Assembly (NCBI RefSeq): GCF_019312585.1
Contig: NZ_JAHWDP010000002.1
Location: 434,001 to 498,000, forward strand
Origin: Halomarinibacterium sedimenti
GTDB taxonomy: Bacteria; Bacteroidota; Bacteroidia; Flavobacteriales; Flavobacteriaceae
Length of the DNA stretch: 64,000 nt
Reading direction: 5' to 3'
In this document: positions 2,174 to 18,845 of the stretch, one piece after another
Layout of the letters: each line of letters starts with the position of its first letter
How positions within the stretch are numbered: the stretch's first letter is position 1
Made by a program: the position numbers and the translations under genes
Notes under the pieces: generated by a model
The model's input: the letters and a program-made list of their open reading frames with translations, nothing else
Told to the model about the DNA's origin: nothing
The model's database searches: none

Positions 2174-2948
2174 GTATTGGATATGGGTAAATTAAGTTTA
2201 TTTGGGTGCCTTTTTCCTTTTCTGACATAATGCTAAATGTTGCGCCAATTACTTTTGCTCTGCTTTCCATATTCTGCAACCCTGAATTGGTGTTGACCAT
2301 AAATTGGTCAAAGCCAACTCCATCATCCTTGGCCATGATTTCCAAATGGGTCTCTTTATAGTTTAAATTTACGAATATTTTTTTTGCAAAGGCATGTTTA
2401 AGGGTGTTTGAAAAAAACTCTTGTAATATTCTAAAAATTATGATTTCAACTTCATTTTTTTGGGGAATTTCTTTTCCATTTATTTTAAGCTCAGTTGATA
2501 AAAACCGAAGACGTTCGTAACGATCAAGCTCAGCTTTTAAAGAAGCGACAAGACCATTGTTGAGTACTACTTCATTATTTAAAGTTTTGGATAACGCCCT
2601 CACTTCCTGCAATGTAGAACCCAGTGTAGTTTTAGTTTCCTCAATTTGGTTCTTCATTTCTTTGGGGCTTTCATTTAATAACATTCCTAGTTGAATATTT
2701 GCCACTGAAAGTAATTGCCCAATATTATCGTGTAGCTCCCAAGCAATATTCTTAAAAGTTTGTTCTTGAATTTCAATTTGCGATTTTGCCAATTCTTTTT
2801 CGAATCTTTTTTCGGCTTCAAAGCGTTCAACCAACATTTTATTCTTCCGCCTCTGAAAAGCAACAACAAAAACCACTACAAAAAATACAAGTATAAAAAC
2901 TGTAATGATGGAATATAAAATTAAAAGGACTTCATCTTCTTTGAGCAT
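2157..2948 (-). CDS. Membrane-bound sensor histidine kinase, HisKA_3 type (cassette A)
   Basis: NarL-family kinase, 263 aa. A single membrane helix (about residues 6-30) is followed by a short charged coiled coil and the dimerisation/phosphoacceptor region with H73 in WELHDNIGQ. A HATPase_c domain follows, with N-box (LQEFFSNTLKHA) and G-box (DDGVGF, SGLQNM). There is almost no extracytoplasmic sensor, so the signal probably arrives through another protein; the seven-helix product encoded just upstream is the obvious candidate. An in-frame TTG at 2972 would add eight residues; the ATG at 2948 is preferred because the cassette B paralog begins equally close to its helix. It overlaps the upstream gene by 28 bp. 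Confidence 0.92.
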   Translation of the reverse strand: MLKEDEVLLILYSIITVFILVFFVVVFVVAFQRRKNKMLVERFEAEKRFEKELAKSQIEIQEQTFKNIAWELHDNIGQLLSVANIQLGMLLNESPKEMKNQIEETKTTLGSTLQEVRALSKTLNNEVVLNNGLVASLKAELDRYERLRFLSTELKINGKEIPQKNEVEIIIFRILQEFFSNTLKHAFAKKIFVNLNYKETHLEIMAKDDGVGFDQFMVNTNSGLQNMESRAKVIGATFSIMSEKEKGTQINLIYPYPIHEHFE

Positions 2949-3637
2949 ACCAAAAAACCAATTATAAAGCAAGAATACATAAATAAATTAGAAATCAAAA
3001 CTATATAGACCTGCAGCTTTACAAAAAGTAAATTTCCAGTAGATACATTAAAATAATCTGAAAAAATGGCCAAAGGTGCATTGACTAAGTTAAAAACAAA
3101 AACACCAACAGCAATATACATTGGGAGATGCGTTTTAAGTTGTAAAATTAAATCCGACTTGAGTAGCTCATAAAAAAACTGAAAAATAACTCCCAAAATT
3201 ATAAAAGTACCAGCTATAACCACAAAAGAGGAGTTTTCAAAGAAAGAAGTCTTAACAAATTGAAAATAAACCGAAGTTAAAAGATATAGTACCAATGTTA
3301 TTTTCGCAATGCTTTTAAAAAATTTGTTATTAATATAATACAAAAAATATAGACATATTAAAATAGGATTAATAATATCGTAAAAATTATAAACCCAAGT
3401 ATTACGCCTAAAAGGTGAGTTTTCGATAAAGGAAAAGTATTGATATTTCGAATAGTATCCAATAACCGAATAACTAGCTATAATTTCAAGTAAAACGACT
3501 ACCCCCAAATAGGCAACTAATAATTTAAGAGGTCTACTTGGTTCATTCCTTTTTAAAAAAAATATGCTTGCTATAAATGAAAATATAACAAATAAAAACG
3601 CCGAAAAAGAAAATATAAAATAATCGCTAAGTCCCAA
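2921..3637 (-). CDS. Seven-helix membrane protein of unknown function (cassette A)
   Basis: 238-aa integral membrane protein with seven predicted hydrophobic segments (near residues 8-28, 38-58, 88-104, 112-127, 138-158, 172-195, 205-233) and short loops. I recognise no enzyme or transporter motif. Length, helix count, loop pattern and gene position match the product at 17715-18377 in cassette B, suggesting distant homology. The frame begins at TTG (3637), 2 bp after the stop of the small upstream gene, with no nearby ATG, so it probably depends on coupled translation. A receptor-like module feeding the kinase is inferred from the conserved gene order only. Confidence 0.75.
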   Translation of the reverse strand: MGLSDYFIFSFSAFLFVIFSFIASIFFLKRNEPSRPLKLLVAYLGVVVLLEIIASYSVIGYYSKYQYFSFIENSPFRRNTWVYNFYDIINPILICLYFLYYINNKFFKSIAKITLVLYLLTSVYFQFVKTSFFENSSFVVIAGTFIILGVIFQFFYELLKSDLILQLKTHLPMYIAVGVFVFNLVNAPLAIFSDYFNVSTGNLLFVKLQVYIVLISNLFMYSCFIIGFLVCSKKMKSF

Positions 3638-3639
3638 TA

Positions 3640-3996
3640 CTAATAACTATTAGGAGGCCATCCCCCCTGGGTTCTATTTAATGGATCTATTTCGTAATTA
3701 TTGTCAGAATCTTTACTGACACCAATTGTTGGGGCAAGAAAGACCGTTGCCTTTTTATTTTCTAAAGTATCATAGGCAGCAAAATAAATTCTAATTCCAG
3801 GGTCTGAAACTCCTTGCCTAGTTGATAATTCTTTTACATATGCAACATATTCTTCTATTTCCTTAAGGCTAAAAGTAAAATCTTTTACATCCTTAAACCC
3901 TGTTGCTATCTCAATTTCAGAAACCCTTGTTCTATTCCAGTTTCCCTGAAGTTCCTTTGCTTCAGACACACTAATACAATTCTTTGGTTTTACCAT
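3640..3996 (-). CDS. Small conserved protein of unknown function (cassette A)
   Basis: 118-aa soluble protein with no signal peptide, starting at the ATG at 3996 (a GTG one codon upstream is possible). I know no named domain. It aligns by eye with the 116-aa product at 18391-18741: shared EA-x(4)-GNW-[NR] near the N-terminus, then FxxxLxxIxxxV, a strand IRIYFAAYD versus VRAYLAIDG, then VFLAPT versus VIVGTQ, a DxNxxYxxDxL segment and a Pro-rich tail (GGWPPNSY versus DPCPPKCDP). It is the first gene of the cassette. A ligand, effector or input protein for the membrane partner would fit, but there is no direct evidence. Confidence 0.75.
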   Translation of the reverse strand: MVKPKNCISVSEAKELQGNWNRTRVSEIEIATGFKDVKDFTFSLKEIEEYVAYVKELSTRQGVSDPGIRIYFAAYDTLENKKATVFLAPTIGVSKDSDNNYEIDPLNRTQGGWPPNSY

Positions 3997-4067
3997 CACA
4001 CTTTATTTTTAAGTTTTATTAGACCAAGTAAGTCATTTATAAAATCTCTGACAAGTTGAAACTAAAA

Positions 4068-16211: not shown

Positions 16212-16880
16212 TTATTCAATAATGCTTAAGGACACTAGATTGTTCTTAATGGCAAAAACGACCAAACCTGCTAAATTCTTTACACCTGTTTTTTCCAGTA
16301 AATTTTTTCGGTGTACCTCAACGGTACGTTTACTAATAAAAAGTTTTTCGGCTATTTCTTGAGAGGTTTTTTGATGACAGATAAGCTCAAGCACTTCCCG
16401 TTCTCTTTGGGTTATAAAGTCGACATCAAAAAAGGTACGTGAGTCGCTTTTTTCGGAATTTTTTAAAGATTTTACCGCTTCCATCACAAACGAATCGTAA
16501 TAAAATCCATTATAAAACACTTGCTTAATAGTGTGTAATACTTTTTGGGTGGGCGAATTTTTTACCAAATATGCTGAAGCTCCCACATCAATCATATTTC
16601 GTATAAATGGTTTTGTATTGTAAGTCGTTAAGGCAATGATACTAATCTCTGGAAATTCTTGATGAATACTTTTTGTAGCCTCCACACCGTTGAGTTCTGG
16701 CATTTTAATATCCATGATTATAATATCTGGAAGTTCTTTTGCCGTGGTTAAAAATTCTATTAATTCCTTTCCGTTACTGGCTTGAAAGATAATTTCTATT
16801 TCATCATCTTTTGAGAGGATATGAGACATTCCTACTCTAAACAATTCTTCGTCGTCGGCAAGGACTACTTTAATTTTCAT
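16212..16880 (-). CDS. NarL/FixJ-type response regulator (cassette B)
   Basis: 222-aa response regulator: receiver domain with D9-D10 and phosphoacceptor D57 (IIMDIKMPELNG), then a LuxR-type HTH (about 155-215, with ITQREREVLELI and SQEIAEKLFISKRTVEVH). It overlaps the upstream kinase gene by 11 bp. It is paralogous to the regulator at 1520-2173 and closes the same order of genes. Its HTH recognition helix differs from that of cassette A (SKRTVEVHRK versus SPKTVDGYRQ), so the two may not share all sites. Confidence 0.94.
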   Translation of the reverse strand: MKIKVVLADDEELFRVGMSHILSKDDEIEIIFQASNGKELIEFLTTAKELPDIIIMDIKMPELNGVEATKSIHQEFPEISIIALTTYNTKPFIRNMIDVGASAYLVKNSPTQKVLHTIKQVFYNGFYYDSFVMEAVKSLKNSEKSDSRTFFDVDFITQREREVLELICHQKTSQEIAEKLFISKRTVEVHRKNLLEKTGVKNLAGLVVFAIKNNLVSLSIIE

Positions 16881-17682
16881 TATTGGGTTGGCTAGTTATA
16901 CTTACTTTAATTCCATTTCCTTGGCTAGATTCAATATCGCACGTGGCATTCATTAAAATCGCTCGGTTTTCAATGCCACTCATCCCAAGACCTTTAGCAC
17001 TTCTTGCTTCAGCTAAATTAAATCCTTTACCGTTATCGGTATATTGTAAAGATAGGAGGTTTTCTTCAGTATTTAAAGCGACTTGAATGTTTGTTGCACC
17101 AGAATGTTTTATGGTATTACTAAACAACTCTTGAAGGATTCTAAATAGGTGTAGTTCGTTTGCTGAAGAAATAAAATTTTCTTGATACTGAATATGGTAT
17201 TCTAGGGTGAAATTTTTAGTTTCTTGTATCTCCTCACACAATTCCTCTACGGCAGCTTGCAATCCAAATTTATCGAGGGTTGGTGGTAATAAGTCGTGAG
17301 CAATGCGACGGGAATTTTCTAATACGGTAGACGTTACTTTATGGATACTTTCTCCAATCTTATTTGCTTCAGTAGGAGTGATGTCTTTATCGGTTAAAAA
17401 ATTAGCGTTTAGAGAAACCACATTGAGTTTGGAGCTTATGGCATCGTGTAAATCTTGTGCAATGCGTTGTCGTTCCTCCTCTTGAGTAACAATGGTGTTT
17501 TGTAACAATTCTTTTTGGTATTCTATTTCTAGCTCTGCTTTTTCCAGTTGGGTTTTAATAATTTTCTTTCGTGAAAAGTAGAAAAAGAGGACAATCGCAA
17601 AGGACATCAATAACAATAATCCTATGGCAATAAGGATGATGTTTACGATTTGGATTTCATCATTAATAAACGACTCATTCAT
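16870..17682 (-). CDS. Membrane-bound sensor histidine kinase, HisKA_3 type (cassette B)
   Basis: 270-aa kinase. Only about 12 residues precede the single membrane helix (13-36); a coiled coil follows, then the phosphoacceptor H79 in AQDLHDAISSKL, and a HATPase_c domain with N-box (LQELFSNTIKHSG) and G-boxes (DNGKGF, GLGMSGIENR). Like its cassette A counterpart it has no periplasmic sensor domain, so input should come from a partner; the seven-helix protein 32 bp upstream is the candidate. Confidence 0.94.
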   Translation of the reverse strand: MNESFINDEIQIVNIILIAIGLLLLMSFAIVLFFYFSRKKIIKTQLEKAELEIEYQKELLQNTIVTQEEERQRIAQDLHDAISSKLNVVSLNANFLTDKDITPTEANKIGESIHKVTSTVLENSRRIAHDLLPPTLDKFGLQAAVEELCEEIQETKNFTLEYHIQYQENFISSANELHLFRILQELFSNTIKHSGATNIQVALNTEENLLSLQYTDNGKGFNLAEARSAKGLGMSGIENRAILMNATCDIESSQGNGIKVSITSQPNNEN

Positions 17683-17714
17683 TACACGAAGATAGGAAAT
17701 TCAGTCGCTTTATA

Positions 17715-18377
17715 TTATTCTATTGAGGATTTGAAAAATGAATAATTTTTCCACCATTCTATAATGATAATAATTTGAAATCCTAGATACAAAAATCTAT
17801 TAATATTTACCAACGTGTCCGATACAGAAATAGGAATATTTAAATTGTATATCAAGTTCCCAGAAGCGAATATTAATGAACTAGATAACAAGTAGATGAG
17901 AATTGCTGAATTTATTAAAACAAATTCGGTTTTTTTATTACTTAAAGAATGATACAAATATAAAATCGAATAAAACACAAGTATTATATGTGAAAAGACT
18001 GCCGCCAAAGTATTATATCTAAAATACAAAATTGGATCTAATATATACTGTATAGCAAATAATATAATAGCCACTATAGTAATACCATTAATAAATTTCT
18101 TTTTTAATAATCCCTTATAAAACAGTGATAATGAAAGAAATTGAAAAAGTATAAAGTAAAAGAAAAAAAATATTGTCTCCTCTCCTTCATAAAATACTTT
18201 ATGAAGTTTAGAACCTAACTGAACTAAACCGATTAATACTAAGTAGGCAGTAAAATATTTAAAGGCCTTACTAAATTTAGTAAAGCCTCTTAAATATAAT
18301 ATGGGTAAAAATAAAGACAGGAAAACAGTTAAATTTCCTACAAATTCTATTAAATTTTCTTTTACAATTTCCGACAT
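17715..18377 (-). CDS. Seven-helix membrane protein of unknown function (cassette B)
   Basis: 220-aa integral membrane protein with about seven hydrophobic helices and short basic loops. No motif is recognised. It occupies the same place as the 238-aa protein of cassette A and shares a similar profile, for example KYFTAYLVLIGLVQL aligned with KLLVAYLGVVVLLEI in the second helix. It begins with ATG 13 bp after the small gene. A receptor or signal-relay role for the adjacent kinase is inferred from gene order. Base composition is notably AT-rich, as expected for a hydrophobic protein here. Confidence 0.75.
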   Translation of the reverse strand: MSEIVKENLIEFVGNLTVFLSLFLPILYLRGFTKFSKAFKYFTAYLVLIGLVQLGSKLHKVFYEGEETIFFFFYFILFQFLSLSLFYKGLLKKKFINGITIVAIILFAIQYILDPILYFRYNTLAAVFSHIILVFYSILYLYHSLSNKKTEFVLINSAILIYLLSSSLIFASGNLIYNLNIPISVSDTLVNINRFLYLGFQIIIIIEWWKNYSFFKSSIE

Positions 18378-18390
18378 TAATTTTAATAAA

Positions 18391-18741
18391 TTAATTTAAC
18401 GGACTTGACGGATCACACTTAGGTGGACAAGGGTCTGTAAAATCCCAAATACTATTGGTTCCAGCTCCTGCGGCTTCTCCTGCGGCAGGTAATAAATCTC
18501 TATACACGCCATTTTTATCTTTCTGGGTCCCCACAATTACTAATTTCTCGACACCACCATCAATGGCTAAGTAGGCTCTTACCATAGGAGAATCTGTTTG
18601 TGCTTGAATCTCTGCTACGGCACCCTGAAGATCCGCTAAAGGAATTAAAAATGCTCTCGCACTTGTTGATGGAGCTCCCCTCCAATTACCTGTCCAGCTT
18701 ATTGCTTCCGCTAATGTAATTTTACCATCTGTTGCACTCAT
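18391..18741 (-). CDS. Small conserved protein of unknown function (cassette B)
   Basis: 116-aa soluble protein without signal peptide, first gene of cassette B. It shares EA-x(4)-GNW-R, a VRAYLAIDG strand, an NGVYRDLLP segment and a Pro-rich tail with the 118-aa product of cassette A. The tail here carries a CPPKC cysteine pair, absent from the other copy, that could bind metal or form a disulfide. The central part is Ala/Gly-rich and low in Lys, unlike cassette A. I know no named family. The ATG at 18741 lies about 50 bp after the pgi terminator, so its promoter must be very close. Confidence 0.75.
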   Translation of the reverse strand: MSATDGKITLAEAISWTGNWRGAPSTSARAFLIPLADLQGAVAEIQAQTDSPMVRAYLAIDGGVEKLVIVGTQKDKNGVYRDLLPAAGEAAGAGTNSIWDFTDPCPPKCDPSSPLN

Positions 18742-18792
18742 AATTTAAAAAATTTAGTTAGTTAATAATTTTTGATTTCCTATAAAAATAGA

Positions 18793-18820
18793 AAAACCCT
18801 CGATTAAAATCGAGGGTTTT
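18793..18820 (-). terminator. Intrinsic terminator of pgi
   Basis: AAAACCCTCGATT / AATCGAGGGTTTT, a 13-bp perfect stem with a 2-nt minimal loop (about 4 nt in practice). On the minus strand it is followed by a T-rich run, directly behind the pgi stop and ahead of cassette B. Confidence 0.85.
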
Positions 18821-18845
18821 AAATTTAATTGTTCAAAAGAAATTG

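Follow-up and report, generated by a model that had tools for sequence, protein, structure and literature searches.

Cassette B, a cluster of four genes in the window (the whole 64,000-nucleotide stretch of Halomarinibacterium sedimenti DNA analysed here), encodes a small protein (S), a membrane protein (M), a histidine kinase (H) and a response regulator (R), an arrangement that looks like an undescribed form of sensing through a receptor separate from the kinase. In our preferred reading, to which we assign a probability of roughly 0.55, M would act as a receptor or brake for H and S as a modulator. The reading draws on homology, gene order, conservation, predicted fold and topology, the lack of a recognised sensor domain in H and the occurrence of M together with different kinase families. 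Cassette B would represent one of three old lineages, present in its own genome, of a receptor-coupled two-component system. M would sense a ligand or the state of the membrane (or act as a brake) and relay this to H, which has a single membrane helix, lacks any recognised sensor domain and would thus need a partner for its input. S would serve as an accessory protein dedicated to tuning M or H. R, a LuxR-type regulator, would be phosphorylated by H; in other lineages its targets may extend to tail-collar or contractile-injection genes that are encoded divergently.

Organization of cassette B

Cassette B occupies positions 16212-18741 of the minus strand in the order S, M, H, R, and its genes are tightly packed: S and M are separated by 13 bp, M and H by 32 bp, and H and R overlap by 11 bp. 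S (18391..18741) is a leaderless protein of 116 aa with a C-terminal CPPKC tail; M (17715..18377) is a seven-helix membrane protein of 220 aa, predicted to lie N-out/C-in; H (16870..17682) is a HisKA_3 histidine kinase of 270 aa with one TM segment; and R (16212..16880) is a NarL/LuxR-type response regulator of 222 aa. Pfam assigns HisKA_3 (70-136) and HATPase_c (175-263) domains to H, and Response_reg (E 1.9e-23) and GerE (E 3.5e-18) domains to R. The pair thus belongs to the HisKA_3/NarL class of two-component systems, with DHp and ATPase parts in H and a receiver plus GerE in R. PADLOC CARF3 models also match the C-terminal part of R, which is the region holding GerE (best E 1e-8). The coordinates, strand, sizes and gene order originally predicted for cassette B were correct, as was the observation that a second cluster in the window, cassette A, has the same order and similar sizes. 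The neighbours of cassette B in the window are genes that we take to be pgi and a YifB/ComM-like gene.

The 104-bp space between pgi and S (18742..18845, minus strand) contains a 12-pair terminator-like stem (18793-18820) followed by TATTTTTA, which starts 49 bp before S; this space reads as the pgi terminator plus a promoter-like element. A similar element is found in part of the B orthologues. When 32 non-redundant regions upstream of B were examined, 17 contained TATTTTTA, compared to a maximum of 14 in 50 shuffles. We also considered TATTTTTA as an R-binding motif upstream of S, and dropped this candidate since it lies directly behind the pgi terminator stem in the window.

Cassettes A, B and C are old lineages

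Cassette A lies on the minus strand of the window and consists of S (3640-3999) and M (2921-3637), which are homologues of the corresponding B proteins, together with H (2157-2972) and R (1520-2173), which were identified from ORF coordinates and Pfam. A third cassette, C, is located on another contig of the same genome (G000:C1:153973-161260, locus L091), and its S carries a lipoprotein-like leader. Profile comparison using hhalign aligned S of B with S of A over 79 columns (prob 95, E 1.8e-8), and M of B with M of A over 210 columns (prob 97, E 8.6e-11). Reversed alignments and column shuffles (10 each) of the same two pairs reached best E values of 0.027 and 0.13, respectively; by pair, the best control value was 0.027 for M and 0.13 for S. 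For two unrelated membrane families, with three members apiece, the best E was 0.045. The strongest control of all six pairs came from comparing M of B with M of C in reversed form (E 0.0043), compared to 6e-8 for the true pair. Since the profile comparison was positive and the reversed and shuffled controls failed, these results bear out the proposed homology of the A and B small and membrane proteins. The S alignment stops at B residue 76, however, leaving outside the homologous stretch the DxNxxYxxDxL segment that had been proposed as common to both S proteins. Seven helices had likewise been claimed for both membrane proteins; they are predicted for M of B, and for M of A they follow only by way of its homology.

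A and C are close relatives (S, E 1.8e-49; M, E 2.1e-51), and B is the outlier in both S and M. In a careful kinase tree built from 38 chosen of 67 rows (L108, L099, L109 and L103 were among the long or odd rows omitted), A grouped with C (support 100/99) and B stood separately (100/100). The AU test rejected both an A+B clade (p-AU 3.7e-9) and a B+C clade (7.1e-34); a single clade of A, B and C kinases relative to the other HisKA_3 kinases of the genome was neither shown nor rejected (p-AU 0.37). A quick tree of all 67 rows agreed on A, B and C, and placed two other kinases of the genome beside A+C (support 84). The regulator tree, in which outgroup branches are long, agreed in outline, with A again grouping with C. 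Because the trees group A with C and leave B apart, A and B are old lineages that did not arise by local duplication. The idea that B is a second copy or sister of A was therefore contradicted, as C is nearer to A in both kinase and regulator trees and the A+B clade is rejected; a recent duplication from A to B is ruled out by the kinase trees and AU test. A and B are linked: among 12 genomes with both (this genome counted, with A-type S taken at an identity of at least 45%), 11 carry them on one contig, in matching orientation in 11 of 11 and within 30 kb in 8 of 11.

Gene order is kept across Bacteroidota

S of B was found in 22 and S of A in 80 of 149 genomes of the family (own genome included in each), and the B and C profiles matched 25 and 28, respectively, of 296 Bacteroidota genomes. 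The succession S-M-H, allowing for extra S or M genes, was present in 20 of 20 B regions, 18 of 18 A regions and 19 of 20 C regions. These B regions represent 20 of 21 matches outside the own genome, with one at a contig end omitted (G079, the same place as L017), while the A and C regions are a chosen subset of the A-search matches. The sole exception among the C regions, L105, has S-M only. In L086 and L143 S is overlapped by an antisense ORF and was identified from the profile/protein search; L103 has an extra S between M and H, and some gaps within cassettes reach several hundred bases. R was present in all B and A regions and in 12 of the 20 C regions; seven C regions (L093, L094, L096, L102, L103, L107 and L110) display S-M-H without an adjacent regulator. 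The 20 named B loci, among them those of Marinirhabdus gelatinilytica and Altibacter lentus, comprise 18 with S-M-H-R, in one of which R reaches the contig end, and 2 that are cut earlier, so that every named B locus not truncated before H (18/20) keeps S-M-H. In several loci S or M is present in two or three copies ahead of one H, and no run of cassette genes in the fetched regions contained two H genes.

A search with M only, covering 247 genomes of the class, matched 26 genomes at 30 loci. We examined 23 of these, the other 7 being the own genome and family members close to B; L215 and L219 among the 23 are places already in the earlier sets. S was located upstream of M in 18 of the 23, two of them scoring weakly (E 7e-4 and 2e-3), and one of the other five loci was cut off. 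M was followed by H in 22 of these loci. At L208, S and M occur and H is absent. None of the 1329 ORFs of the collected loci fuses S, M, H or R to another of the four, and viral contigs searched with S of B gave no match. A literature search, with subscription journals and preprints mostly outside its scope, found no account of an S-M-H-R cassette.

Dedicated accessory genes are thus kept beside kinase and regulator, as is characteristic of three-component signalling. The view that all four parts work as one device holds insofar as the two non-kinase parts, S and M, have homologues in A and B and are found repeatedly with a kinase throughout the phylum, so that they probably act as a unit. It falls short in that R or the kinase family varies.

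M is predicted to be a separate seven-helix protein

AlphaFold2 predicts seven helices for M of B (pLDDT 92). In each of 21 rows, Lys and Arg are enriched in loops 1, 3 and 5 and at the C-terminal end (mean 11.3 vs 2.8); because the positive-inside rule is obeyed in every row, M is predicted to be N-out, C-in. M of B therefore has, as a prediction, the seven helices and N-out/C-in topology of the GPCR type. Structure searches with M returned mainly GPCRs over near-full length, with a best Foldseek E of 0.046 and a best VIA Z of 13.8 (rmsd 4.3, 217 aligned) that lies close to the background stated for helical bundles, and the M sequence had no match in the PDB at E <= 1. Since GPCRs are abundant in the PDB and the Z is near background, our claim is limited to a GPCR-like helix arrangement in the predicted model and does not extend to kinship.

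Conserved positions of M are mostly aromatic, Leu, Asn and Gln, together with a Glu-Trp pair. Neither M nor S of the window matched anything above the curated cut-offs of Pfam and NCBIfam, or in PHROGs and PADLOC at E 0.01, and M of B had no transporter match in Pfam. When 67 M members were scanned against Pfam, stray single-member matches were obtained for DUF2371 (E 0.0045, under cut-off) and 7TMR-DISM_7TM (PF07695, E 0.0062), the latter in 1 of 21 A-type and 0 of 46 B- and C-type M proteins.

S differs between lineages in its tail and leader

The open frame of S of B spans only 117 aa, and therefore leaves no room for a leader. Its model consists of two helices plus a sheet and a loose tail, at moderate confidence (pLDDT 75); the fold had no match worth naming in the PDB, where the C-type profile was also searched, and none among viral models, and it may be an unlisted one. 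Pfam matches among 44 S members were to LuxC, DUF3568 and syntaxin, in one member each (E 0.005-0.008). Using a simple hydrophobicity rule, and with some starts uncertain, S was leaderless in all 17 A-type members and in 65 of the 67 B-type ones, while 44 of 60 C-type members had a lipoprotein-like or membrane leader. As the leader is absent in A and B and present in most of C, the compartment of S is not constant. Eight of the 11 loci with two S genes combine one leadered and one leaderless S, two of these with uncertain starts. At L017:874-1917 an S domain is fused behind a leaderless thaumatin-like domain (a weak match, E 0.0037, under cut-off).

The original prediction held that the tail of S differs between copies. 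A CPxxC-like tail was found in 54 of 67 B-type, 0 of 17 A-type and 1 of 60 C-type S proteins (some loci overlap between the three sets in these tail counts), in agreement with this claim. However, the second Cys has been lost in many members from Flavobacterium (the genus is our guess). Pro-Pro within the last 25 residues is moreover common to the three types (17/17 A-type, 48/60 C-type and 50/67 B-type), and elsewhere in S it occurs in 1 A-type, 20 C-type and 2 B-type members. That the difference in tails reflects different inputs for A and B is a guess.

The succession of small protein, membrane protein, kinase and regulator, together with the conserved C-terminal tail of S, recalls a peptide loop of the agr kind, in which S would be the precursor, M would process or export it, and H would sense the product. 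M bears no sign of an AgrB-type protease: no Cys or His was conserved at >=80% in 21 B-type M rows, and an AgrB-type Pfam match was absent from 67 M members (E <= 0.01). S is conserved along its folded domain, and H lacks a recognised ligand-binding domain. We consider such a loop highly improbable.

Kinase input and kinase swaps

The kinases of A and B are ~270 aa long; hydropathy gives them one TM segment, and neither has a sensor domain that could be recognised. The genome contains 11 HisKA_3 matches, of which just three, belonging to A, B and C, lie in short frames (273-276 aa), the others ranging from 599 to 1003 aa. A short, one-helix H without a recognised sensor domain therefore argues for input from a partner, for which M would be the candidate in our preferred reading.

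Kinase scores were unusually weak at three loci, L108, L170 and L224. The kinase behind S-M in L108 and L170 is of the LytS-type His_kinase family (PF06580), and that behind M in L224, where no S was found, is of the HisKA_2 family; L108 and L224 have LytTR regulators in place of GerE. S-M (L108, L170) or M (L224) thus precedes other kinase families, such that the same input proteins stand before three kinase families in all. This exchange, as judged from gene content, marks S-M as a putative portable input module whose input would be kept while the output changes.

We measured correlated divergence for each pair of proteins given the other two, in 14 A and 26 B loci (12 tests, p uncorrected). 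M-H values were 0.27 in A (p 0.01) and 0.07 in B (p 0.22), and M-H was not singled out; the M-R value in B was 0.44 (p 0.0005). S-M values of -0.01 in A and 0.15 in B (p 0.067) failed to reach significance, while S-H values were 0.33 in A (p 0.002) and 0.23 in B (p 0.03). Since the divergence of S tracks that of H more closely than that of M, H may be the target of S instead of M.

The unclear coupling of M-H divergence, S-M without H in L105 and L208, and the seven C regions without R would also suit a reading in which S and M form an independent sensory or transport pair and have no more than an operon in common with kinase and regulator. However, a kinase comes after M in nearly every complete locus, at short or overlapping spacing, even when the kinase family differs, and we find a merely co-transcribed pair quite improbable.

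Comparison with known systems

The cassette would work like the accessory-protein systems QseEGF, UhpABC and LiaFSR, and lacks their family-defining partners where this could be tested. In UhpC-UhpB-UhpA, a separate polytopic receptor feeds a HisKA_3 kinase and LuxR-type regulator; UhpC is a transporter-like protein of 12 helices, and the membrane domain of UhpB is large. One of the best NCBIfam scores of H, below cut-off, is against the model of UhpB. In contrast to UhpABC, M has 220 aa, seven helices and no transporter match, H has one TM segment, and S is without counterpart. The 7TMR-DISM and LytS-type proteins likewise provide a bacterial seven-helix input to signalling domains, but there helices and kinase or effector form one fused protein, whereas M is a separate protein.

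LiaS is a kinase without a sensor domain, and its partner LiaF has four helices. M might be a brake of the LiaF type that binds no ligand, holds H inactive and releases it upon envelope stress, with S linking M or H to the stress. H resembles LiaS in its lack of a sensor domain, and gives scores against the NCBIfam models of LiaS, UhpB and NarX, which belong to the same kinase class, although all are far under the cut-offs. M, however, has seven helices compared to the four of LiaF. The accessible part of PMC3543457 describes LiaF as a negative accessory of LiaSR, and the likeness to LiaFSR lies in the combination of sensor-less kinase and membrane accessory protein. No LiaF-type Pfam match was found in 67 M members at E <= 0.01, and S has no counterpart in LiaFSR. 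We judge a LiaF-type brake unlikely, albeit a serious alternative.

QseG-QseE-QseF resembles the cassette in that an accessory protein dedicated to the system is encoded next to kinase and regulator; some C-type S proteins, moreover, look like lipoproteins. QseG binds QseE and activates it, and the accessible part of the source describes no seven-helix partner (PMC12691602). S differs from QseG in that it is leaderless in A and B, and no common Pfam family was found.

Neighbouring genes

Among 45 genomes with a B-type S, 26 contain tail-collar matches, 60 in total. A collar match lies <=3 kb from S in 11 of the 45, compared to ~0.06 expected assuming genomes of 3.5 Mb; these 11 genomes belong to two families, are in part related to one another and do not represent 11 independent events. 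Tail collar genes are adjacent to, and divergent from, the B-type cassettes of L017, L058, L067, L068, L069, L134, L135, L137, L138, L145 and L147, and L184 has one beside a C-type S. Cassette B of the window adjoins neither a tail-collar nor a contractile-injection gene. Three tail-collar matches occur in its genome (G000:C15:26077-29104), on a contig other than those of the three cassettes.

A Pvc16_N gene, indicative of a contractile injection system, is divergent from S in 5 of 18 A regions, and is followed by a gene without assignment and then by a sheath-like gene; this second gene past Pvc16_N, itself without a Pfam match, reads as a tail sheath. Pvc16-like and sheath-like genes are divergent from the A-type cassettes of L076, L077, L080, L081 and L084, and L075 has only the gene without assignment from this set beside its cassette. 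Seven of 19 A-type genomes (own included) have Pvc16_N, located away from the cassette in 2, and the own genome has no Pvc16_N match. In the accessible part of an eCIS survey, 25.8% of eCIS loci have GerE as a neighbour, and for 9% of these a histidine kinase lies upstream; S and M are not mentioned (PMC8213781).

Other A- or C-type cassettes adjoin muramidase, CHAP or patatin-like genes. An 868-aa protein with a patatin-like domain (window:4336-6942, E 1.7e-7) is encoded divergently from cassette A, and its phmmer relatives lie near the A-type cassettes of L073, L074, L075, L078 and L082. At L062:3-2351, an ORF that we take to be recombinase-like abuts a 298-aa ORF whose start matches the 513-aa YifB/ComM-like gene found beside B elsewhere, as if an element had inserted in the YifB/ComM-like gene.

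A broader reading would join these observations. M would be a phylum-wide, separate GPCR-like heptahelical receptor serving at least three kinase families, and R would switch on phage-tail-derived particles or tail-collar proteins. Leaderless S would be cytosolic and reach the outside only upon lysis or release, such that the system would report damage to kin or delivery of tail-like particles. As a whole we hold this broader reading to be very improbable.

Significance

Across Bacteroidota, two protein families that have no place in Pfam are found time and again in a fixed order next to a kinase, in some cases close to tail-collar or contractile-injection genes. If M is a receptor, it would provide the input that is missing for many of the one-helix kinases in the phylum, would show that a receptor module has been swapped between kinase families, and would offer a handle on the possible control of injection particles in Bacteroidota.
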